A DNA stretch of 64,000 nt from Fodinicola acaciae. Its GTDB lineage: Bacteria > Actinomycetota > Actinomycetes > Mycobacteriales > HKI-0501. The stretch lies in the NCBI RefSeq assembly GCF_010993745.1, contig NZ_WOTN01000001.1:2731235-2795234 (forward strand), in the 5' to 3' direction. Each line of letters starts with the position of its first letter. Within the stretch, counting starts at the first letter, position 1. This document shows, piece by piece, positions 32,939 through 42,957 of this stretch. The position numbers and the translations under genes are program-made. Below the pieces are notes generated by a model, which saw nothing but the letters and a program-made list of their open reading frames with translations, was not told where the DNA came from and searched no databases.

Positions 32939-33811
32939 TCAACTGCCCAGGAGTTGCCGGATGTCCATAGCGGTCGGAAAGGACTCCTGCGCACCGGCCC
33001 GCCGGACGGCCAGCGAACCGGCCGCCATCCCCCATCGGACCGCTTCGCGCAGGCTGTCGCCGGCGGTCAGCCGCGCGGCGAGTACGCCGACGAACGCGTC
33101 GCCGGCGCCGGTCGTGTCGACGACATCGGCCGGAATCGCTGGTAGTTCCAGTGTTTCGCCGGCATCTGTGAGCACCGCGCCGGCCGCACCGATCGTGGTG
33201 ATGACAGCGCCGACACCGCGATCGAGCAAAGCCGCGTGCGCCGCACGTACGTCGAAACCCGGACCGACCACGCCCAGTTCGTGTTCGTTGACAACGAGAA
33301 CGTCGCACTGCGCGAGCAACGAGTCGGGCAGCGGTTGGGCCGGCGCCGCGTTCAGTACGAAGGTGCCGGTGCACTCCGATGCCGCTCGTTCGACAACTGC
33401 CAGCGGGATTTCCAGCTGGCATAACGTAACGCCGTCCGACGACAGGGATTGCCCGTCGTCCCAGTGAGCGTTCGCGCCGGGCACGACAATGATCGAATTG
33501 TCGTCCGGCGTGACGGTGATCCAGGCGCTGCCGGTCGGCACGTCCGTGACCGTACCGACGCCGGCCACATCCACCCCGCGGTCGGCGAGCCGTTGTTTCG
33601 CCTTTTCGCCGTCGCTGTCGGCGCCGACCCGGCCGACCATCCGGACGGCGGCGCCGGCCAGCCGAGCGGCCACCGCCTGGTTGGCGCCTTTTCCGCCGAG
33701 CCCGGTGCGCACCTCCCGGCCGGCGATGGTTTCGCCCGGTGCCGGGAAAAAGTCGGCTCGTACGGCGTGGTCGACGTTGACCGAGCCGATCACCACGACC
33801 TGATCAGGCAT
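32939..33811 (-). CDS. rbsK: ribokinase (PfkB family)
   Basis: The 290-aa product matches ribokinase in length and motifs: MPDQVVVIGSVNVDHAVRAD, the sugar-binding GGKGANQAVAAARL-type stretch (GLGGKGANQAVA), and the anion-hole/catalytic DTTGAGDAFVGVL with the base Asp near residue 235. It phosphorylates ribose to ribose 5-phosphate after import. Its ATG lies inside the end of the ABC ATPase gene (8-bp overlap). Confidence 0.9.
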   Translation of the reverse strand: MPDQVVVIGSVNVDHAVRADFFPAPGETIAGREVRTGLGGKGANQAVAARLAGAAVRMVGRVGADSDGEKAKQRLADRGVDVAGVGTVTDVPTGSAWITVTPDDNSIIVVPGANAHWDDGQSLSSDGVTLCQLEIPLAVVERAASECTGTFVLNAAPAQPLPDSLLAQCDVLVVNEHELGVVGPGFDVRAAHAALLDRGVGAVITTIGAAGAVLTDAGETLELPAIPADVVDTTGAGDAFVGVLAARLTAGDSLREAVRWGMAAGSLAVRRAGAQESFPTAMDIRQLLGS

Positions 33812-34577
33812 CGATGTCGCCGGCGATCGCACCTGTGATCAGGCCGACCAGCTCGTCACCGGTCGTGGAGCCGATGTCGCGGTGTGCGGCCGCGCGGCCG
33901 CGGCGCAGGACCCAGGCGCTGTCGGCGACCCGCATGACCTGTGCCATGTCGTGACTCACCAGCAGCACGGTCACGCCGGCTTTTCGCAGCCTGTCTATCA
34001 AAGCCTCCACCGCGGCCGTTTCCCGGACGCCCAGTGCGGCGGTCGGCTCGTCCATGATCACCAGCGTCGTTCCCCAGTTGGCGGCTCTGGCGATGGCGAT
34101 GCTTTGCCGTTGTCCACCTGACATCCGCCGGACCGTGGTGCGGACGTTTGGCACGTTCACGTCCAGCTCGGTGAGGATCTGCCTGCTGCGGCTGATCATC
34201 CGCTTCTTGTCGAGCATCCGTACGAACGGGACCGGATAGACCAGCTCTCGGTTGAGGAACAGGTTTTGCCAGACCTGCAGGTCCTCGATCAGTCCGAGCT
34301 CCTGGTAGACCGTCTCGATGCCGCGTTTTCGCGCGTCGTCGGGCGAACTCAGCCGCAGCGGCGATCCCTCGAACAGGATCTCGCCGGAGTCCGGTGGATG
34401 TACGCCGGTCAGGCAGCGTACCAGCGTCGACTTCCCGGCACCGTTGTCGCCGAGCAACGCGGTGACCTTTCCCTTGTAGATGGTCAGATCGACGCCCTGC
34501 AACGCGCGTACGGCGTCGAAAGCCTTGTGCACATTACGCACCTCGAGCAGGGTCGATGACTTCACCAGGTCGGTCAT
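33804..34577 (-). CDS. sugar ABC transporter ATP-binding protein (single domain)
   Basis: The 257-aa product is a single ATPase domain of the RbsA/FrcA type: Walker A GDNGAGKST (near 41-49), Q-loop YQELGLIEDL, signature RRMSGGQRQSIAIARA, Walker B LVIMDEPTAALG, and H-loop LLVSHDM. Classic RbsA has two such domains; single-domain FrcA-like ATPases are usual for some actinobacterial ribose/fructose importers and would act as a homodimer. It overlaps ribokinase by 8 bp. Confidence 0.92.
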   Translation of the reverse strand: MTDLVKSSTLLEVRNVHKAFDAVRALQGVDLTIYKGKVTALLGDNGAGKSTLVRCLTGVHPPDSGEILFEGSPLRLSSPDDARKRGIETVYQELGLIEDLQVWQNLFLNRELVYPVPFVRMLDKKRMISRSRQILTELDVNVPNVRTTVRRMSGGQRQSIAIARAANWGTTLVIMDEPTAALGVRETAAVEALIDRLRKAGVTVLLVSHDMAQVMRVADSAWVLRRGRAAAHRDIGSTTGDELVGLITGAIAGDIDA

Positions 34578-34593
34578 GAGTGTCGCACCCCCG

Positions 34594-35559
34594 CTATTTC
34601 TGGAACCTGGAAATGAAAGCCGCGCCGAGCACCACGGCACCGACCGCGATCGGTTGGTAGTACTGCGAAATCCCGATCAGCGTGAAGCCGTTGATCAGGC
34701 TTTGCAGCAGTACGGCGCCGGTCGCCGAGCCGAGCACCGACGCGCGGCCACCGAACAGGCTGGACCCGCCGAGCACGACCGCCGCGATCGAGCTGAGCAG
34801 CAGGTTGGTCTGCAGCGACGGATCGGCGCCGCCGGTGCGCGCGACGAGCAGCACGCCGGCGAGCCCGCAGAACAGGCCCGATCCGAGGTAGGCGTAGAGC
34901 CGCATCCGCGACACGTGGATGCCGGCTCCCCTGGCCGCATCGATGTTTCCACCGGTGGCCAGCAAATGCGTGCCGGTCGGCGTACGAAACAGCAGGAACG
35001 CCACCACCAGCGCGGCGACCAGCGCGACCAGCCAGAACCAGCGGATCGGTCCGACGCCGCCCAACGCGAGGCCACGCAGGAAACCCGAGTTGACCGCTAC
35101 GGTGTTGCCTTGTGTCAGCAGCAAAGTCACGCCGCTGACCACGCTGAGCGAGCCGAGCGTGACGATGAAGTCGCTCATTTTCAGCCGGGCGACCAGAATG
35201 CCGTTGATCGCGCCGATGACACCACCGCCGGCCACGGCCAGCAGGATCGCGACCGGCAGCGGCCAGCCCTGGGTGACCGCGAAGCCGAGCAACGCCGCCG
35301 ACCACGGCAGGTTGGCACCGATCGACAGGTCGATGCCGGCGACCGTGACGACCAACTGTTGCCCCATCGCGAGCACCATCAGGATCGACGCCGACACCAG
35401 CAGGTCGCTGAGGTTGGAGACGGTCAGGAAGTCCGGTGTGGCGATGAAAAAAGCGAGGAAGACGAGGACAAGTCCGATCGGCGCGGCATAGCGGGCTCCG
35501 GCGCTGACGACGGTGGCCGTACGCCGCCGCTGCGGCTCGGAAACGACGGTGGTGGTCAC
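34594..35559 (-). CDS. sugar ABC transporter permease (RbsC-like)
   Basis: The 321-aa permease has 8-10 helices and the RbsC-family signature: MGQQLVVTVAGIDLSIGAN, INGILVARLKMSDFIVTLGS and the C-terminal ARTGGADPSLQ, LSSIAAVVLGGSSLFGGRAS. The start is the GTG at 35559, 4 bp after the binding-protein stop. It forms the channel for the sugar delivered by the lipoprotein encoded next to it. Confidence 0.92.
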   Translation of the reverse strand: MTTTVVSEPQRRRTATVVSAGARYAAPIGLVLVFLAFFIATPDFLTVSNLSDLLVSASILMVLAMGQQLVVTVAGIDLSIGANLPWSAALLGFAVTQGWPLPVAILLAVAGGGVIGAINGILVARLKMSDFIVTLGSLSVVSGVTLLLTQGNTVAVNSGFLRGLALGGVGPIRWFWLVALVAALVVAFLLFRTPTGTHLLATGGNIDAARGAGIHVSRMRLYAYLGSGLFCGLAGVLLVARTGGADPSLQTNLLLSSIAAVVLGGSSLFGGRASVLGSATGAVLLQSLINGFTLIGISQYYQPIAVGAVVLGAAFISRFQK

Positions 35560-35563
35560 AGCG

Positions 35564-36592
35564 CTAGCCCGCCAGCGGGTTCTGGTAGGGCTCGAACGGC
35601 TGCGGGAAGCTGCCGATCGCCTTGTCCACATTGGACTTGTCGATCAGCTTGATCGGCGCCACGATCCGGGCCGGCACGGATTTCTTCGCCACCGCCTTGA
35701 TGCACGCCTGGACGGCCAGTTGGCCCTCGGCGTACGGATACTGCGTGATGGTCGCCGACAGCGTGCCGGACTGCACGGCCTGCAGCGCCGCCTTGATGCC
35801 GTCGACCGAGATGATGGTGATCTGGCCGGACTTTCCGGCGTTCTTCACCGCCTGCGCTGCCCCGAGGCCCATCGTGTCGTTGGCCGCGAAGATTCCCTTG
35901 ATGTCAGGGTGAGCGTGCAGAATGGCCTCGGTGACCGTCTGTGCCTTGCTCTGGTCGTAATCGGCGGGTTGTTTGGCGACGACCGTCAGTTTCCCGGTGG
36001 TGGCGGCGGCAAAACCCTTCTCGCGGTTGATGCCGTTCTGCTCGCCGGCGATGCCCTGCAGGATCGCCACGTTTCCGCTGCCGACCTTCTTCTGCAGCGC
36101 CTGCCCGGCCAGCGTGCCGGCCTGCAGGTTGTCCGAGCCGATGAACGAGGCGTACGAGACACCGGCCGACTTGGACGCGGCCGGGTCGATCTGGGTGTCC
36201 AGGTTGAGGATCGGGATGCCTTTCTGCGCGACCGGCACCAACGGCGTGATGACATTGGTCGCGTTCACCGGCACCACACCAAAACAGTTGTAGTTCTGAC
36301 CGGCCAGTGTCGAGATTTTGGCGTTCTCACCCGAAGAGTCGGTTTCGTTGTCGCCGGCCTGCACGTTCACCGTGACGTTCTGCTTCTTGCCTTCGGCGAT
36401 CGCGCCGTCCCGCAGCGCGGCCCAGTACGGGTTGGTGAAGTCGCGGGTCACGATGGCGATTTTGGCCTGTCCGCTGCCGGAACTGGAGTTGGCCGAGCTG
36501 CCGCGGTTGCAGGCCGTCGTGGTGACGGCCAGTCCGACCGCCAGCACGACGCCGGTCGCGATCCGGAACCGGCGAGACTGCGGGTAACGCAT
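35564..36592 (-). CDS. sugar ABC transporter substrate-binding lipoprotein (RbsB-like)
   Basis: The 342-aa product has a signal peptide ending in the lipobox LAVTTTAC (Cys near residue 28) and a Ser/Gly linker. It then has the type I periplasmic-binding fold: AKIAIVTRDFTNPYWAALRDGA, GVVPVNATNVITPLV, and GIFAANDTMGLGAAQAVKNAG. Its close match is to ribose/xylitol-type binding proteins. It is anchored on the outer face of the membrane. The LacI gene lies 33 bp upstream on the same strand. Confidence 0.92.
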   Translation of the reverse strand: MRYPQSRRFRIATGVVLAVGLAVTTTACNRGSSANSSSGSGQAKIAIVTRDFTNPYWAALRDGAIAEGKKQNVTVNVQAGDNETDSSGENAKISTLAGQNYNCFGVVPVNATNVITPLVPVAQKGIPILNLDTQIDPAASKSAGVSYASFIGSDNLQAGTLAGQALQKKVGSGNVAILQGIAGEQNGINREKGFAAATTGKLTVVAKQPADYDQSKAQTVTEAILHAHPDIKGIFAANDTMGLGAAQAVKNAGKSGQITIISVDGIKAALQAVQSGTLSATITQYPYAEGQLAVQACIKAVAKKSVPARIVAPIKLIDKSNVDKAIGSFPQPFEPYQNPLAG

Positions 36593-36625
36593 CAGTGCAT
36601 CCCTTCCTTGTACGTCAACGAAGAA

Positions 36626-37675
36626 TCAGGCCGGCGCCGGTCCACACGACGCGCGCCGTACCAGTGCGCACGGCGGCGTCGCGGCGGCGGCGTCCGGCAG
36701 AGCCGGTAAGGAGCCGTCGACCAGATGGATCATCGCGCGTACGGCCGCCGTGGCAAGGCCGGCGATCGGCTGCGCCACCGCGGTCAGCGGCGGGTCGAAA
36801 AGGTCGAACCACGGCGCGTCGTCGAATCCGACCACCGAAACGTCGGCCGGAATGCGCAGGCCGGCGGCGCGCAGACCCTTGATCGCGCCGATGGTCATGA
36901 GGCCGTCGGCGCCGAAGATCGCGGTCGGCCGGGCGGCCGCGCCGAGAAGCTGGCTGACCGCGCGTTCGCCGCTGTCCTGCCGAAAATCGCCTTCGGCGAC
37001 GGTGATGTCGGTGGCCGCGACACCGCGAGCGGTCAAAGACGTGATCATCAGCTCGGTGCGTTCCACGCCGACGGCGGTGGCCATCGGTGGCGCGATGATC
37101 CCGATCCGGCGGTGACCCAGACCGGTCAGCAGGTCGGCCACCTGCGCCAACGCGTCCGCCGCCGCACTCCGTACGACCGGGCAGCCGGCCAGGTGCCGCG
37201 CCGCCGCACCCCGGCCGGACACCTCGACCGGCCGGTCCAGGAACACCAGCCGTGCCTTGGATTTTCCGGCCGCCTCCAGCCCGGCCGTCATCGCCGCCGC
37301 CGGCACCAGGATCACGCCGTCGACCCGACTGCCGGCCAGCAGCGTCTGCAGATACTCGTCCTGGACTCGGGCATCCTCGTCGGAATTGCAGAGTACGGTG
37401 GAAAATCCCTCCGCCGCCGCGGCGCGCTGGATCTCGCCGGCCAGCTCGGCGAAGAACGGGTTGGCCACGTCGCTGATCACCAGCCCGAGCGAGCCGGTCA
37501 ACTCGGTACGCAGCGCGCGAGCACCGGCATGTGGCCGATAGCCCATCTCCCGCGCGACAGCCGCGATCCGGTCCCGGGTCTCGGTCGGGATACGCGGATT
37601 TCCGGACAGAGCAAGCGAAACAGCGGCGACCGACACGCCGGCGGCCGCCGCCACGTCGCGCATCCGTACCGCCAT
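36626..37675 (-). CDS. LacI-family repressor of the ribose/nucleoside operon
   Basis: The 349-aa product has the LacI helix-turn-helix and hinge (MRDVAAAAGVSVAAVSLALS, RIAAVAREMGYRPHAGARAL) and a sugar-binding core (LVISDVANPFFAELAGEI, AIFGADGLMTIGAIKGL). It is first in a six-gene minus-strand run, so it is autoregulated together with its targets. The start is the ATG at 37675. A 20-bp operator-like palindrome begins 17 bp upstream. Confidence 0.92.
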   Translation of the reverse strand: MAVRMRDVAAAAGVSVAAVSLALSGNPRIPTETRDRIAAVAREMGYRPHAGARALRTELTGSLGLVISDVANPFFAELAGEIQRAAAAEGFSTVLCNSDEDARVQDEYLQTLLAGSRVDGVILVPAAAMTAGLEAAGKSKARLVFLDRPVEVSGRGAAARHLAGCPVVRSAAADALAQVADLLTGLGHRRIGIIAPPMATAVGVERTELMITSLTARGVAATDITVAEGDFRQDSGERAVSQLLGAAARPTAIFGADGLMTIGAIKGLRAAGLRIPADVSVVGFDDAPWFDLFDPPLTAVAQPIAGLATAAVRAMIHLVDGSLPALPDAAAATPPCALVRRASCGPAPA

Positions 37676-37692
37676 CACGTCCGTCCCGATCG

Positions 37693-37712
37693 CTAGTTAA
37701 ACGATTAACTAG
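37693..37712. promoter_or_regulatory. LacI-type operator
   Basis: CTAGTTAA and TTAACTAG flank the central ACGA, giving a 20-bp palindrome with the CG centre typical of LacI-family sites. It lies immediately before the LacI gene, the only evident control site of the whole operon, since the other gene gaps are 33 bp or less. Confidence 0.85.
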
Positions 37713-38186
37713 GCACCCTAGGCCGACGCTGGACGATTTGGGAAGCCCGCGCTCTTACTTGATCGAGAAAGCTAGAAGTGCCAGGCTAGAGGGTAGGGGT
37801 GCCGGCGTGGCGTGATGGCTAACAAAGGCGAGGACGGACCCCGCCGTCGAACGACCCGCGAGATCCGCCGACACCAGTCGACGCCATTCGACCCACCCTG
37901 TGAACCGAGCCAGTGACCGATCACGACCGAGGGGCCACCGACCGTCAACCGTCGGATCGCGTGCCGAAGAAACACCCGACCCGGCGGACTCGCGACCACA
38001 AGCGGCCGATCAGTAACGTTTCGCATTATTCCAGCGAGGAATCCATTTGCTCGTTTCGCCCGTCGGCGACCATCCTGGTTCACCGCGGCAAGTATGAGTG
38101 CGGCATATATTCACCGGCGCTGTTTTGGTGTATAACCGAGCAAGTCGGGGGCTCGACATTCCAGAAAACACTGGAAGGACGATCCC
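37713..38186. other. intergenic region, about 470 bp, no gene seen
   Basis: This lies between the divergent LacI and membrane-cytochrome genes. Open frames on both strands (for example 37772-38083 minus) have no family resemblance and atypical composition. The right part (38010-38160) is A/T-richer than its surroundings and probably holds the promoter of the cytochrome operon. GGAAGGA ends 4 nt before the GTG at 38187. Confidence 0.6.
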
Positions 38187-38804
38187 GTGTGGCCGCACCT
38201 GGTGACCGCCACGACCGCACATTCGGCCCATGACGCGGTCGTACGGTCCGTCGCGCAGGCATTCGCGCACACCGCGTACGTGGCGCTGTGCCTGAGCCTG
38301 AGTTGGGGAGTTTTCGTTACCACCGGCTGGATCGGCCGGATCACCGGGCGTGTTCCGATGCGCCGGAGCCATGCGACGCTGGCCGTCCTGGCCATCTCAT
38401 TGTCGGTGGCGCACGCCGCGACATTCCTGTTCCTGACCGATCTCGACGAGCGATTCAGCGTCGGTGCGCTGGTCGTGCCGCTGTTTCCGAACGCGCCGAC
38501 CCGCTGGACATTGGGGATTATCGCGGTCGACCTCATGATCGCGGTCGTGTTGTCGACGGCGTTGATGCGCTTCATCGTTTACCGCCGATGGCTGCGTTTT
38601 CACCGGCTGGCATATCTGGCGGTGGCGCTCGGCGTCGCGCATTCCTGGCTTGGCGCGGTCGCGAATGGCACGCTCGCGGTGCTGTGGATCGCCGGACTCT
38701 CCGCACTCGCCCCAACCGTGCTGGTGGCCGCATTGCGGTTCACACCGACCAGATATCTGGAATCCACCGGATTCCTCACGTCGGCGCGGAGTCGCGATGC
38801 GTGA
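38187..38804 (+). CDS. ferric-reductase-like membrane cytochrome
   Basis: This 205-aa protein has about five to six helices and two histidine pairs: His62/His76 in RRSHATLAVLAISLSVAHAA, and His139/His152 in RFHRLAYLAVALGVAHS. The spacings of 14 and 13 residues, in two helices, are the heme b ligand pattern of ferric reductases/NOX-type cytochromes. There is no flavodoxin or FAD domain in the protein; a separate ferredoxin and reductase follow. The start is GTG. It overlaps the ferredoxin gene by 8 bp, so it is the first of a four-gene coupled operon. The electron acceptor is unknown. Confidence 0.8.
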   Translation: MWPHLVTATTAHSAHDAVVRSVAQAFAHTAYVALCLSLSWGVFVTTGWIGRITGRVPMRRSHATLAVLAISLSVAHAATFLFLTDLDERFSVGALVVPLFPNAPTRWTLGIIAVDLMIAVVLSTALMRFIVYRRWLRFHRLAYLAVALGVAHSWLGAVANGTLAVLWIAGLSALAPTVLVAALRFTPTRYLESTGFLTSARSRDA

Positions 38805-39045
38805 CGACCGGACGCCGCGCCATCGCAGGACCTTGCGCCACGCCGTAAAAGTCAGCGTCGACAACCAGCGCTGCCACCTGTACGGATTCTGCCAGCTGGA
38901 GGCTCCGGAGTATTTCCAGCTGGCGCCAGGGCAACGGCTCCGGTACGCCGGCAGAGTCGTTGCCTCCCAGGCACAACAGGTGATCGCCGCCGCGCGAATG
39001 TGTCCGATGCGTGCGATCCATGTGTCCGGTGAGCGTACGCCGTGA
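38797..39045 (+). CDS. ferredoxin, 3Fe-4S type
   Basis: The 82-aa product has the short-ferredoxin pattern KVSVDNQRCHLYGFCQLEAP, i.e. C-x5-C, then a distant RMCPMRAIHV. The second Cys of a canonical C-x2-C-x2-C motif is absent, which suits a [3Fe-4S] cluster like those of the ferredoxins serving P450s. The APEYF stretch is also typical. The ATG sits within the end of the cytochrome gene. It probably shuttles electrons from the reductase encoded next to the membrane cytochrome. Confidence 0.88.
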   Translation: MRDDRTPRHRRTLRHAVKVSVDNQRCHLYGFCQLEAPEYFQLAPGQRLRYAGRVVASQAQQVIAAARMCPMRAIHVSGERTP

Positions 39046-40331
39046 CGCGCGGCCGGCAACGGATCGTCATCGTCGGTGCCGGACTGGCCGGCCTGCGCGC
39101 CGCGGAACGGTTGCGTGAGTTGCGTTTCGACGGCGACATCCTGATCGTCGGCGACGAGCCGTACGCGCCCTATCATCGCCCGGCGCTGTCCAAGCAGGTG
39201 CTCACGCAACGCGGCGGCGCCGACGACATCACGCTGCGGTCGTACGTCGACCTTGGTGATTGTTGGCGGATCGGCACAAGAGCCTGGCGGCTCGCTCCCG
39301 GCCGGCATGTGGTGTCCTTGCCGGGCGGCGAAGAACTGCGCTATGACGGCCTGGTCATCGCGACCGGCGTACAAGCGCGGCATCTTTCCGGCGCACCACG
39401 ACAAGATCCGCGCATACATGTGTTGCGTACGCTCGACGACGCCTGGTCCATCCGCGCGACGCTGAGCCGGTCGCGTGGTCGCGTCGTGGTCATCGGCACC
39501 GGATTCACCGCCTGCGAAATCGCCTCCAGCCTCCGGGAAACCGGCCGCGCCGTCACATTGGTCGGGCGCTCGGCGACGCTGCTCGGCGGTGTCATCGGCG
39601 AGGAATGTGGCGAGGCGATGAACGATTTCCACCGCCGCAACGGAACCGACCTCGTGTTGGGCGTGACAACGGCCGGCTGGGACCGCCGGCCGGACCACGT
39701 GGCCGTACGGCTGTCCGACGGCCGGGTGCTGACCGCGTCCTGCGTCGTCGTCGCCATCGGCAGCGTCTTCAACACGGACTGGCTTCGTGGCGCGGGAATC
39801 GACACCGACGGCGGAATCCGTTGCGATCCAACGTGTTTCGTGGAAGGCACGGAGGACGTGGTAGCCGCCGGCGATGTGGCGCGTTGGCCGAATCTCCGCT
39901 TCGATGAAACGCCGCGGACCTGCCAACACTGGCTCAACGCGGTGGAAATGGGACGCGCGGCGGCGCAAAACCTGCTGGCGGGGCGATCGCGTGCTCGGCC
40001 GTACTGTCCGATGCCGGCGTTCTGGTCGGAACAGTATGGCCGGCGGATCCAGGGTGTCGGCCTCCCGGCGCTCGCGACCAACAGCGTTCCCTTGTCCGGC
40101 AAGCTGAAACACCTGCGAAGAGCGGTTTTCGGTTACGACGAAGGCGCTCGACGCGTCGGTGTGATCGCTTTCGACCAGCCACGCGAGCTTCTGCGGCTGA
40201 CGCTGGAGTTGGAGTCGGCACTGCCGGCACCACCGCGTGCGATCGCGCGCGCTCCGCGACCGACGCGTACAACTGCTCCGGCTGGCCCCGACCTGATCTT
40301 CGTGACGAAAGGACTCCACCTTGCGACTTGA
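39042..40331 (+). CDS. FAD-dependent ferredoxin reductase
   Basis: The 429-aa product has two Rossmann motifs: IVIVGAGLAGLRAAERLREL for FAD and VVVIGTGFTACEIASSL for NAD(P)H. It also has PYHRPALSKQ, the ATG motif (VIATG), and the second FAD contact GDVARWPN. This is the putidaredoxin-reductase/BphA4 type, which reduces small ferredoxins. The C-terminal ~80 residues diverge and end with an arginine/proline-rich tail. The GTG overlaps the ferredoxin stop (GTGA). It should pass electrons from NAD(P)H to the adjacent ferredoxin. Confidence 0.92.
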   Translation: MTRGRQRIVIVGAGLAGLRAAERLRELRFDGDILIVGDEPYAPYHRPALSKQVLTQRGGADDITLRSYVDLGDCWRIGTRAWRLAPGRHVVSLPGGEELRYDGLVIATGVQARHLSGAPRQDPRIHVLRTLDDAWSIRATLSRSRGRVVVIGTGFTACEIASSLRETGRAVTLVGRSATLLGGVIGEECGEAMNDFHRRNGTDLVLGVTTAGWDRRPDHVAVRLSDGRVLTASCVVVAIGSVFNTDWLRGAGIDTDGGIRCDPTCFVEGTEDVVAAGDVARWPNLRFDETPRTCQHWLNAVEMGRAAAQNLLAGRSRARPYCPMPAFWSEQYGRRIQGVGLPALATNSVPLSGKLKHLRRAVFGYDEGARRVGVIAFDQPRELLRLTLELESALPAPPRAIARAPRPTRTTAPAGPDLIFVTKGLHLAT

Positions 40332-40680
40332 CTATTACTGGCGCAGACGCCGCCTCCAGCAGCTGATCTCCTATTCCGGTGTCGCTGCCGTACTCGCCAC
40401 CGGCACGGCTTCGACGATCGCGTTGACGGTCTCGCACGACACATCCGTCGCGCCGGCGCTGGCACACAACAGCCCGCAGGAACAGGCGCTGACCGCATCT
40501 TTCGTCGGTCAGCCGGAGCCGGCCCGTACGGTGGCCAAACCGGCGCCGCACAAGCCGGCGCATCATCGCGCGCTGCATCGGCATCATGCCAGACACACGC
40601 ATTGTGGCCGGCATCGTCAGGCATGGAGTGTCGCGCGCATGACCACGACCTGGTATGGATTCCAGGTGGAGAGCAGGTAG
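40321..40680 (+). CDS. exported histidine-rich small protein
   Basis: The 119-aa product has a basic N terminus, a hydrophobic signal/anchor (about 18-38, ending near ALTVSHD), then a Pro/Ala linker and a cluster of about eleven histidines and one Cys (HKPAHHRALHRHHARHTHCG). The latter looks metal- or heme-binding. The start is TTG, with AAAGGA 8 nt upstream, inside the last codons of the reductase gene. The last 64 bases overlap the 3' end of the convergent repeat-protein gene. No family is recognised. It may handle the metal or heme of the operon's cytochrome. Confidence 0.65.
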   Translation: MRLDYYWRRRRLQQLISYSGVAAVLATGTASTIALTVSHDTSVAPALAHNSPQEQALTASFVGQPEPARTVAKPAPHKPAHHRALHRHHARHTHCGRHRQAWSVARMTTTWYGFQVESR

Positions 40681-42875
40681 TAGATGGTCGCGGAGGTGGA
40701 GTTTCCGGACGTGTAGCGGGAAAGGATGAACGGCGCGTACGGTCCGCCGCCGTTGGTGGCACCGGGTTCGTGTGTGTTGTCGCAGTCGCGCGAGCCGTCG
40801 TGGATGAAGTGACACAGGCCGTTGTCGGCGCCAGGACTGAAAATCGTGCTCGGCGCCGACCACGGACCCCATGGCGTGTCGGAGAACCGGGCGACCACGC
40901 CGGGGTCACAGTTGTAGAGCATCAGCCATTTCTGCAGCGGCGCGATCCACGACACCGAAAACTCGCCGATGCACGGCCTTTGGTCGCCGGTGTTGAAGAC
41001 GTTGCTGGCCTGCGCCGGATCAGCGCTCCACAGCGGACTGCCGCCTGCGTCCAGACCGGTGAAATACCGCCAGCTGCTCTGGTCGGCGACCGAGCCGGCC
41101 GGCACGTACGCGAGATATGGGTAGCTCGCCCGATAGTTGGGCACGCCGTAGACGTACGCGCCTTTCCTCTGGTCCGCCGGCAGTCCGGCGATCGTGTCGG
41201 AGTTGACCGAGGCGGTGTAGACGAATGCCGGCGGCAGCCGGAAAAGTCGTTCGTACGTCGTGCCGTCGGCGTTGCGTCTGGTCATCCAGCCTTCGCCCAC
41301 CTGGTTGGTGCCGTAGTTGCAGATCGTCGCGGTCATGCAGTGCTTGGTCCAAAACGCCGCGTACGTGCTGCCGCCCGCGGCGAACCCACTGGTCGGCACG
41401 TTGAAGAAGCCCTGCAGGAAGTTGGTGTCCCGGCTGCCGTTGACGGTCACGATCGCTGGTGTGACGGTGTTTCCCTCCGGCACAGGTGTCAACTGCAGGC
41501 AGTTGGTGTCGGTTGGCGCGGTGGTCTGCCGCGTCTGCAGGACGACGTCGTCGGGACTGTTCTTCTCGTCGGTGGAAATCGGCGTGTGGTTCAGGTGCGT
41601 GTCACCGAACATCAGGCTCAGCGTGGTGCCGTCGTCGACGGGATAGCCCAGGTCGGTGGCCCATTCGCTGTAGTTGAGCCCGCTCGTGCCGTTGACCGTC
41701 GGCGCCAGCCGCTCCAGGTCCCATTTTCCGCTCTGTTGACACACTTTCTCGCTGCGGCCACGGTAGGCGATATCTTGTGCCTGTCCCCAGGCCGCACCGG
41801 GATTGCTGCTGTCGTGCCAATAATGGATCAGCCGGTAGTCGGTGGCGTTCCCGCTGACCTGCGCGCCGTCCGGCACCGGCGCGCGTGGACCGAGCACGAC
41901 CAGCTCGAGGTTGCCGGGCGAGCCGAAGTCGGTCTGGATCAGCGATGCCGCCGAGTTGATCCCGGTGATCCGCGGCTCACCGGCCACCGCCCAGGGATTC
42001 GCCGTGTTGCTGTTGTCCTTCCAGAAATGCACCAGCTCCGACCCGGCCGGCGCGACGACCTCGAAGTTTCCCGATCCGAAGCTGCTTTGGATGAATGACG
42101 GCGCGCCGGTGATGCCGGAGCCGAAGCTCGTCGCGCGCTGCCACGCGCTGTCCGGCGCGCCGCTGTCGTGCCAATAGTGCACCAGGTGGTCGCCTTCGCG
42201 TACGACCAGTTCGAGGTTTCCGTGGCCGCCGGACATGAAAGTCGTCTGGATCAGCGAGCCTGGACCACTGGCGGTGGTCGTGACGACCTTCGCGCGTTGC
42301 CACGGATTGCTGGCGTTTCCGTTGTCGTGCCAGTAATGCACGAGATTGTTGCCTTCGGGCACGACGACCTCGAAGTTGCGGTGCCCGTTGGAGACGAAGT
42401 CGCTGGTGATCACCGACGGCGGCCCGGTGACGCCGGAACCGAAGTTGCCGCCGCGCTGCCAGCGGCTGTTCGGTTGGCCGCTGTCGTGCCAGTAATGCTG
42501 GATGTGGTCGCCTTCCTGGACGAACACCTCCAGATTTCCGTGTCCTCCCGACATGAAGTCGCTTTGTACGATCGCGCCGGGACCGGTCGCCGCGGTGCTG
42601 ATCACCTGGCCGCGGTGCCAGGCCCAGTTGGTGTCGCCGTTGTCCTTCCAGTAATGCACGAGCGTGTTGCCCTGCAGTGCCGCGACCTCGAAGTTGCGGT
42701 GTCCGTTGGAGACGAAGTCACTGCGGATGATCGACGCGGCGCCGGTGCCCAACGGCTCGACGATCGTGCCAGGCGCGGCCGGTGCGGTCGCGGCCGCGGC
42801 CGGCCGAACAGGCGCGAGCAACAGGGCGACGGCGGCGACGGCGACGACGGCAGCTGCGGAACGGAACCATCTCAT
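40617..42875 (-). CDS. secreted protein with six tandem repeats and DUF4185-like domain
   Basis: The 752-aa product has a signal peptide (MRWFRSAAAVVAVAAVALLL, cleavage near AAA-AT) and six ~50-residue repeats (about 40-340). Two repeat types alternate: S-FVSNGHRNFEV...HYWHDNG and S-FMSGGHGNLE...HYWHDSG, each ending W-QR. The C-terminal ~400 residues resemble DUF4185/glycosidase-like beta-propeller domains (LMFGDTHLN, QKWLMLYNC, PYAPFILSRYT). The repeats look like a sugar-binding propeller. GGAG lies 8 nt before the ATG. A role in polysaccharide binding or cleavage is inference. Confidence 0.75.
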   Translation of the reverse strand: MRWFRSAAAVVAVAAVALLLAPVRPAAAATAPAAPGTIVEPLGTGAASIIRSDFVSNGHRNFEVAALQGNTLVHYWKDNGDTNWAWHRGQVISTAATGPGAIVQSDFMSGGHGNLEVFVQEGDHIQHYWHDSGQPNSRWQRGGNFGSGVTGPPSVITSDFVSNGHRNFEVVVPEGNNLVHYWHDNGNASNPWQRAKVVTTTASGPGSLIQTTFMSGGHGNLELVVREGDHLVHYWHDSGAPDSAWQRATSFGSGITGAPSFIQSSFGSGNFEVVAPAGSELVHFWKDNSNTANPWAVAGEPRITGINSAASLIQTDFGSPGNLELVVLGPRAPVPDGAQVSGNATDYRLIHYWHDSSNPGAAWGQAQDIAYRGRSEKVCQQSGKWDLERLAPTVNGTSGLNYSEWATDLGYPVDDGTTLSLMFGDTHLNHTPISTDEKNSPDDVVLQTRQTTAPTDTNCLQLTPVPEGNTVTPAIVTVNGSRDTNFLQGFFNVPTSGFAAGGSTYAAFWTKHCMTATICNYGTNQVGEGWMTRRNADGTTYERLFRLPPAFVYTASVNSDTIAGLPADQRKGAYVYGVPNYRASYPYLAYVPAGSVADQSSWRYFTGLDAGGSPLWSADPAQASNVFNTGDQRPCIGEFSVSWIAPLQKWLMLYNCDPGVVARFSDTPWGPWSAPSTIFSPGADNGLCHFIHDGSRDCDNTHEPGATNGGGPYAPFILSRYTSGNSTSATIYYLLSTWNPYQVVVMRATLHA

Positions 42876-42957
42876 CGCGGCGCTCCAGACCGAGAAAACG
42901 ATTGCCGAGCGGCACCGTACGATCAGACTCGCCACGCGTCAAGACGGCAGCGACGAA

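Follow-up and report, generated by a model that had tools for sequence, protein, structure and literature searches.

The locus examined here raises the question of how a ferric-reductase-type membrane cytochrome that carries no flavin domain of its own is supplied with electrons, and to what it passes them. It lies in a 64,000-nucleotide stretch of the 8.86 Mb genome of Fodinicola acaciae, referred to below as the window, in whose coordinates positions are given unless prefixed otherwise. Four open reading frames (ORFs) of the plus strand, A to D, span 38187-40680 and overlap by 8 (A/B), 4 (B/C) and 11 (C/D) nucleotides (nts), which agrees with the initial annotation of four plus-strand genes overlapping by 4-11 bp. 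Comparative sequence analysis and structure prediction suggest that A, B and C probably form one transmembrane electron-transfer module, in which electrons would run from NAD(P)H to FAD, to a 3Fe-4S cluster, to an inner heme, to an outer heme and to an acceptor outside the membrane. The features concerned are the following:

38187-38804, plus strand: gene A, a membrane cytochrome of 205 amino acids (aa) with the ferric reductase domain (FRD) and four histidines, without flavin or NAD domain.
38370-38372, plus strand: His62 of A, which together with His139 is predicted to hold the inner heme, by analogy with FRD and NADPH oxidase (NOX) structures; conserved without exception in the 62 loci.
38412-38414, plus strand: His76 of A, predicted outer-heme ligand with His152 (a putative assignment), invariant in 62 of 62 loci.
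38601-38603, plus strand: His139 of A, the other predicted ligand of the inner heme, likewise conserved in all 62 loci.
38640-38642, plus strand: His152 of A, the other predicted ligand of the outer heme, likewise conserved in all 62 loci.
38797-39045, plus strand: gene B, an 82 aa single-cluster ferredoxin with the motif CxxYxxC...CP and three cluster cysteines (C26, C32 and C69), predicted to be of the [3Fe-4S] type.
39042-40331, plus strand: gene C, a 429 aa FAD/NAD(P) ferredoxin reductase of the BphA4/putidaredoxin reductase type.
40321-40680, plus strand: gene D (tentative), a short N-anchored or exported protein of 119 aa with 11 histidines.

The neighbours of A in other genomes indicate that the first three genes belong together. 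A search of genome contigs with A alone led to 14 confirmed loci (three from Kutzneria, ten from Amycolatopsis and one from Umezawaea), and in each of them a B homologue and then a C homologue lie downstream on the same strand; homologues of A without conserved neighbours did not occur in this set. A second search with A alone, in the genomes of 61 relatives including the F. acaciae genome itself, gave 17 places in 14 genomes. B and C homologues adjoin ten of these places, one of which is a second copy in F. acaciae, in a tally that did not count reductase matches below 60 bits.

For a wider survey, a fused two-domain alignment of cytochrome and ferredoxin, A2, was used. It matched 34 of 397 genomes of the order (E <= 1e-20; in genomes G006 and G656 over the cytochrome part alone) and 8 of 394 genomes of the class (E <= 1e-30), F. 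acaciae being included in both counts. A search with a distant member, the cytochrome of a Mycobacterium abscessus plasmid, found 32 of the 397 genomes of the order (E <= 1e-15). A mixed alignment, A1, gave many ferredoxin-only matches in the phylum, and that search was left out of the counts. The comparison set consists of 62 non-identical loci, window included, after removal of FRD matches of at most 100 bits (L040-L042, L141-L143 and L158), of copies identical over residues 10-170 and of loci shorter than 6 kb. L158, which was dropped on score, does carry the ferredoxin and the reductase, and L163, found later, stands outside the 62. A reductase gene lies downstream of A in 61 of the 62 loci.

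The link between cytochrome and ferredoxin is often covalent. Both are encoded in one open frame in 29 of the 62 loci and in separate frames in 33, a figure made up of 30 loci by the first distance rule and of L156, L157 and L159, in which the ferredoxin lies further along. Fused examples include Umezawaea (L014), A. orientalis (L016), the second copy in F. acaciae (L035) and the close relative G011 (L036), as well as more distant ones. The L036 protein is 53% identical to A and 63% identical to B. In L014 and L036, Pfam finds both domains above the cut-off, the ferredoxin being in the place of the dehydrogenase. On a maximum-likelihood tree of the cytochrome domain, the fused or separate state changes four times, and at least three of these changes are forced by well-supported branches. 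The A protein of the window groups with the fused G011 protein (100/98), while its wider grouping with Kutzneria and L133 is weak (83/23), and long branches make deep placement unsure.

Some loci depart from the simple order. In L156, L157, L158 and L159 the ferredoxin lies 1.1-1.6 kb past the start of the cytochrome, and that of L156 seemingly has a long proline-rich N-terminal extension. In the Kutzneria loci L004, L005 and L015, a second reductase paralogue is encoded about 1.6 kb upstream of the cytochrome, with the result that two reductases flank one cytochrome and ferredoxin. In L154 (genome G882), an ORF overlaps the end of the reductase gene by 4 nts; its product (GVTVGFHRHLTH) reads like a putative fatty-acid desaturase.

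The assignment of A as a cytochrome relies on its family and on its histidines. A matches PF01794 marginally (31 bits for a Pfam cut-off of 28), and this is the single Pfam match in its 205 aa, in agreement with the earlier remark that the first product lacks a fused flavin domain. His62, His76, His139 and His152 are invariant in all 62 aligned rows, window included, and no loss of the histidine pairs in orthologues was seen. The initial annotation had likened the pairs 62/76 and 139/152 to heme ligands. The four histidines are indeed present and invariant, but the pairing should be corrected, since each such pair sits on one helix. In FRD structures two helices each contribute one histidine to a heme, and the heme pairs of A should thus be 62/139 (inner) and 76/152 (outer).

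A search of the PDB sequences with A found the bacterial NOX SpNOX, at an E-value no better than 0.076. An AlphaFold2 model of the fused homologue L036, built on 50 alignment rows (mean pLDDT 84.8, pTM 0.69), superseded an earlier one on 7 rows (pLDDT 65.7). The model contains long helices at residues 15-44, 53-80, 103-123, 130-157 (broken at 139) and 161-182, followed by a ferredoxin fold. With VIA-align, the top match is SpNOX (Z 13.8, 149 residues, 3.6 A, model residues 15-184 on chain residues 26-182), and the next matches for the cytochrome part are STEAP, Dcytb, cytochrome b561 and NOX5 at Z 11-12. The program itself cautions that helical bundles may often reach Z values of up to about 13, and designed (de novo) ones stand in the list at Z 9-10; it is therefore the sequence family and the histidines that carry the assignment. 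The same model gave no Foldseek match at E <= 0.001.

The model has five long membrane helices, where six would be expected of the FRD superfamily. Because the alignment to SpNOX begins at chain residue 26, the L036-type cytochrome seems to lack the first SpNOX helix. Together with a cytosolic C-terminus, such a loss would place the N-terminus outside, with which the arginine-rich loops between helices 1-2 and 3-4 agree. The position of the ferredoxin, C-terminal to the last membrane helix, and these arginine-rich loops point to a cytosolic ferredoxin.

Ferredoxin B scores above the cut-off of both PF13459 (Fer4_15, 32.9 bits) and PF13370 (Fer4_13, 30.4 bits), and phmmer matches it to 6mcw and to the M. 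tuberculosis ferredoxin Fdx, 8amp. The motif CxxY/FxxC...CP, with three cysteines, is found in all 62 loci (tyrosine in 38, phenylalanine in 24). The ferredoxin part of the L036 model (residues 219-282) superimposes on 8amp with Z 11.3 over 64 residues at 1.5 A. The motif, with its non-cysteine third position, and the fold of the fused homologue suggest that B is a P450-type ferredoxin with a predicted [3Fe-4S] cluster. Reductase C likewise exceeds the cut-offs of PF07992 (Pyr_redox_2, 174.6 bits) and PF14759 (Reductase_C, 32.1 bits), and reductases for rubredoxin, for the biphenyl-dioxygenase ferredoxin and for putidaredoxin are among its best sequence hits in the PDB. In the NCBIfam collection, C matched 79 families, of which the 25 displayed all score under their curated cut-offs; A, B and D had no match at E <= 0.1. 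An acidic residue at the end of the second strand of the NAD domain is the rule for NADH preference. In C, the glutamate of 3lxd at this strand end is aligned with a glycine followed by an arginine, which hints at a preference for NADPH, in a position that is variable among relatives.

In the proposed route, C would take hydride from NAD(P)H onto its FAD and give single electrons to B. The ferredoxin, covalently tethered in many relatives, would dock on the cytosolic face of A and reduce the inner b heme held by His62 and His139. The electron would then pass to the outer heme between His76 and His152 and exit to an acceptor outside the membrane. Comparative sequence data and predicted structure support the three-gene unit, the four histidines, the cluster motif, the fusion and the folds of cytochrome and ferredoxin; heme and cluster occupancy, the direction of flow, the use of NADPH over NADH and the acceptor are inferred. 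Gene order (14 of 14), fusion (29 of 62) and the invariant histidines lend strong support to the earlier suggestion that a split, ferric-reductase-like cytochrome receives its electrons from a ferredoxin and a ferredoxin reductase.

Taken singly, the FRD proteins and the ferredoxins and reductases of these kinds are all well known. The initial annotation knew no name for the split, ferredoxin-fed system, and no description of an FRD with a 3Fe-4S ferredoxin and a reductase was met in the literature covered, mostly titles and the beginnings of abstracts, with subscription papers and preprints outside the scope. MsrQ is a flavin-free membrane heme subunit that feeds an exported partner, and the trio resembles MsrPQ (YedYZ) in its flavin-free membrane heme subunit. 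Fer2 is a [2Fe-2S] domain, whereas the ferredoxin of the trio belongs to Fer4_13/Fer4_15 and has three cluster cysteines. It thereby differs from the FRD-Fer2 architecture, model M8 of a figure legend in Zhang et al. 2013 (PMC3591440), with which it shares an FRD having a ferredoxin as electron-transfer module. Six modular extensions are described in bacterial FRD proteins, and short-form FRDs mostly have two or three of the histidines and in few cases four (Zhang et al. 2013, PMC3591440). YedZ keeps three of the four, with a conserved arginine replacing one ligand of the cytosolic side (PMC3591440). The presence of all four in 62 of 62 loci rules out MsrQ/YedZ, and no MsrP-like gene was recognised at the locus by Pfam searches of A-D and of the neighbouring DUF4185 gene.

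Meheust et al. 2021 (PMC8238504) described MsrQ-like systems of Actinobacteria that come with ApbE and FMN-binding proteins and in some cases draw on a NuoF-like donor. As proposed for the trio, they combine a PF01794 cytochrome and two predicted heme sites to send cytosolic electrons outward, but the donor of the trio would be a BphA4-type reductase with a ferredoxin often fused to the cytochrome. An ApbE/FMN-linked system was rejected for the locus, as neither ApbE nor FMN_bind is among A-D; FMN_bind was not found in the whole genome either, in a search where 4 of 14 controls gave a signal, and the neighbours of relatives were scanned in part. Bacterial NOX (SpNOX, PDB 8qt6 and 8qq7) has the bis-heme four-histidine core that is predicted for A and is the best fold match, while the L036 model, with its five long helices in the membrane, can be superposed on SpNOX from chain residue 26 onwards only. 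P450-type CxxYxxC ferredoxins (Child et al. 2018, PMC6237146) and BphA4/putidaredoxin reductases share the cluster motif, the ferredoxin fold and the reductase family, with the difference that the proposed acceptor in the trio is a membrane cytochrome, often covalently linked. The branch fed by a BphA4-type reductase, often fused to a three-cysteine ferredoxin, can be regarded as a variant within the FRD superfamily, distinct from NOX, MsrQ and the ApbE-linked MsrQ-like systems.

F. acaciae carries a second copy of the module at G000:C2:1131026-1133037 (L035:8006-10029, minus strand), a cytochrome-ferredoxin fusion followed by a reductase, with the cytochrome match at C2:1132480-1132998. Upstream of it lie a MarR-type regulator (Pfam) and two small membrane-like ORFs. 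All three Pfam matches of the fusion are under the cut-off, so that family annotation would miss this copy. A further PF01794-like place, the fourth, at C1:2563358, is under the curated cut-off. Another locus of the genome, L141:5956-9063 (G000:C2, minus strand), encodes ApbE, an FRD with four histidines (by eye), a Complex1_51K/NuoF-like protein and a Fer4_15 ferredoxin. This makes it an ApbE-linked MsrQ-like system that has its own ferredoxin; hence ferredoxin-linked FRDs are not unique to the branch of the trio. The trio is also found on the 19.7 kb plasmid pGD22-1 of M. abscessus (NZ_CP063325.1; L163:5425-8883), the only match among 72,556 PLSDB plasmid records. Its neighbours there are BlaI, a membrane peptidase, a major facilitator superfamily protein, TauE/SafE, a P-type ATPase with MerR, and a MobF relaxase.

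The genes next to the trio in relatives offer candidates for the acceptor. Each of the in-house profiles for extracytoplasmic function (ECF) sigma factors, zf-HC2, DUF4142 and DUF1996 rested on one to four seeds, most of them named by Pfam (the L007 seed for DUF1996 and the L014 seed for zf-HC2 were outside the Pfam scan). With these, a DUF4142 homologue was found upstream in 45 of the 62 loci, an ECF sigma homologue upstream in 44 and a DUF1996 homologue nearby in 27. Lipoprotein_15 (PF03640) proteins are encoded in 36 loci (28 upstream, 8 downstream), counts that may be low because two of the five seeds of the profile were out of frame and left out; Pfam was run on six of these proteins. In Amycolatopsis, the ECF gene is followed by a zf-HC2 anti-sigma gene, and in L016 the DUF4142 gene overlaps the start of the cytochrome gene by 4 nts. 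In L104, L105, L109, L112, L113, L016, L118 and L120, a Lipoprotein_15-type protein is encoded at the end of the reductase gene (by Pfam in L104, L109, L016, L118 and L120, by likeness in L105, L112 and L113), and elsewhere it lies upstream of DUF4142. In a second setting, seen in L153 and on the M. abscessus plasmid, genes for a BlaI-type repressor and for a peptidase of the M48/M56 type diverge from the trio; on the plasmid, a TauE/SafE gene comes after it. No function was met for DUF4142 or PF03640 in titles and the beginnings of abstracts, and DUF1996 proteins of one fungus have been linked with responses to stress and metals (PMC4738358).

By analogy with MsrQ, which feeds MsrP, the exported partner encoded beside the trio (DUF4142, Lipoprotein_15 or DUF1996) is probably the acceptor where it is present. 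A broader idea, tentative yet quite possible, is that of an actinobacterial class of conduits in which a [3Fe-4S] ferredoxin and a bis-heme FRD, under envelope-stress-type control (ECF and zinc-finger anti-sigma, or BlaI and membrane peptidase), would reduce surface proteins of these three families. The window locus has no DUF4142, DUF1996 or ECF gene by the in-house profiles and no Lipoprotein_15 gene; the nearest loci in the tree (G011, the three Kutzneria and L133) and the second copy likewise lack DUF4142, ECF and DUF1996. Candidate acceptors in the window would be D, some protein from another locus or a metal ion.

Several observations count against the module and its protein acceptor. 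Seven of the 17 places found with A alone in relatives, all at E 9.5e-6 or weaker, have no C homologue above 60 bits in the stretch examined, and L116 is the sole locus of the 62 without a reductase. The presence of a ferredoxin in 62 of 62 loci is biased, since these were gathered with A2, which favours the ferredoxin, unlike the counts with A alone. The Pfam score of A is barely over the cut-off and that of the second copy, 19.5 bits, is under it. On E-values alone the Foldseek matches are weak, the best being a ferredoxin at 9.4e-3 and the best membrane match standing at 6.5e-2. In the whole genome, DUF4142 was not found in a search where 4 of 14 controls gave a signal, and one Lipoprotein_15 gene lies away from the operon; the protein-acceptor model is therefore not directly transferable to the window. 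DUF1996 was not found in the genome in a search where no control gave a signal, so that its absence is not established.

Gene D had been described as encoding a His-rich exported protein that could bind metal or heme. The ORF and its 11 histidines are there, but a part in the mechanism is not borne out: no convincing homologue was found in 62 related loci (61 of the table and L163), the best tblastn match having an E-value of 0.049 over 28 residues and none remaining with the low-complexity filter. D starts with TTG 11 nts inside C, with AAAGGA 7 nts ahead. It has no family match in Pfam, NCBIfam or PADLOC and no 19-residue window above 1.5 on the Kyte-Doolittle scale, i.e., no strong membrane segment. 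Its codon score of 0.05-0.09 bits per codon, depending on end treatment, is like that of B (0.02), yet among 110 uncalled ORFs with lengths of 100-180 aa, 22% attain it as well. The last 64 nts of D overlap a convergent DUF4185 gene, whose Pfam match extends to residue 767 of 772. In L133, an unrelated gene overlaps the reductase gene by 4 nts and encodes a product with a basic N-terminus, a hydrophobic segment and a tail of low complexity. This gene and the Lipoprotein_15 genes after the reductase in 8 loci make a fourth exported product plausible; a metal- or heme-binding role of D is a guess.

Metal reduction is possible. In a metal reductase, Fe(III) or Cu(II) would be reduced by the outer heme at the surface, in the service of either uptake or detoxification, and D or another surface protein would bind the metal. 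The FRD superfamily includes ferric and cupric reductases (PMC3591440), the small plasmid that carries the M. abscessus copy also encodes a cation P-type ATPase and a regulator of the MerR type, and D is rich in histidine. However, D is not conserved, the recurrent partners in Pseudonocardiaceae are DUF4142, Lipoprotein_15 and DUF1996 and, as a weaker point, no metal transporter was recognised by eye in 17 chosen loci, with no search by metal-transporter profiles. On balance, this function is rather unlikely.

A split NADPH oxidase, in which the ferredoxin and the reductase would replace the fused dehydrogenase of NOX and the outer heme would reduce O2 to superoxide at the surface, appears improbable. 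Membership in NOX or the long-form FRE is ruled out by the lack of a fused FAD/NADPH (FNR-type) domain in A; as a function it draws on the SpNOX fold match and on the four heme histidines, all present, but the fused FAD and NADPH motifs required by NOX filters (PMC5676040) are absent, and the exported partner genes of many relatives would be left unexplained.

It is more improbable still that B and C work for a P450 or some other soluble enzyme and adjoin A by chance, or that they have both roles. P450s are the usual partners of ferredoxins of this kind (PMC6237146, PMC9868604), the genome has five C-like reductases, and the window holds a P450 gene (1795-3267, minus strand; PF00067, 117 bits) about 35 kb away, a possible second client of B; in the relative L159, a P450 gene lies 2.3 kb upstream of the cytochrome. 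Yet P450-like frames occur in just 2 of the 62 stretches, L159 and the 64 kb window (one-seed search), two of the five reductases adjoin the two A-type genes, and the trio order in 14 of 14 loci and the fusion to the cytochrome in 29 of 62 also speak against it. Reverse flow, with an extracellular or membrane donor reducing the hemes and then the ferredoxin through A, is hardly to be expected, as it has nothing specific in its favour beyond the ability of b-type cytochromes to run in either direction and would make the dedicated NAD(P)H-type reductase of 61 of 62 loci superfluous.

Upstream of the operon, divergent on the minus strand (33804-37678), are genes for a sugar ATP-binding cassette transporter (ATPase, permease and binding protein) and a LacI-type regulator, assigned by eye. 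The convergent gene at 40617-42935 (minus strand) encodes a 772 aa exported-looking protein with DUF4185 (Pfam) after repeats rich in HYWHDSG-like motifs. An anti-phage system was also considered, and A-D have no PADLOC match. Positions 37600-41000 have no Rfam match at the gathering score, and no sigma-70-type promoter site was found in 37700-41000, a result that is uninformative for such an organism. In G011, a CsoR-like regulator and a metal-permease-like protein (L036:8828-10508, by eye) lie 1.8 kb downstream of the reductase, a possible copper link.

If the module and its surface acceptors are confirmed, three orphan exported families, DUF4142, Lipoprotein_15 and DUF1996, would gain a redox role. 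It would also follow that a ferredoxin chain of the P450 type is able to drive the heme core known from NADPH oxidases and ferric reductases. Because the cytochrome and the ferredoxin form one polypeptide in 29 of the 62 loci, the route would be directly testable with one protein and one reductase. Three exported families and two kinds of envelope-signal regulators would thereby be tied to a defined electron source, and their function would become a concrete redox question.

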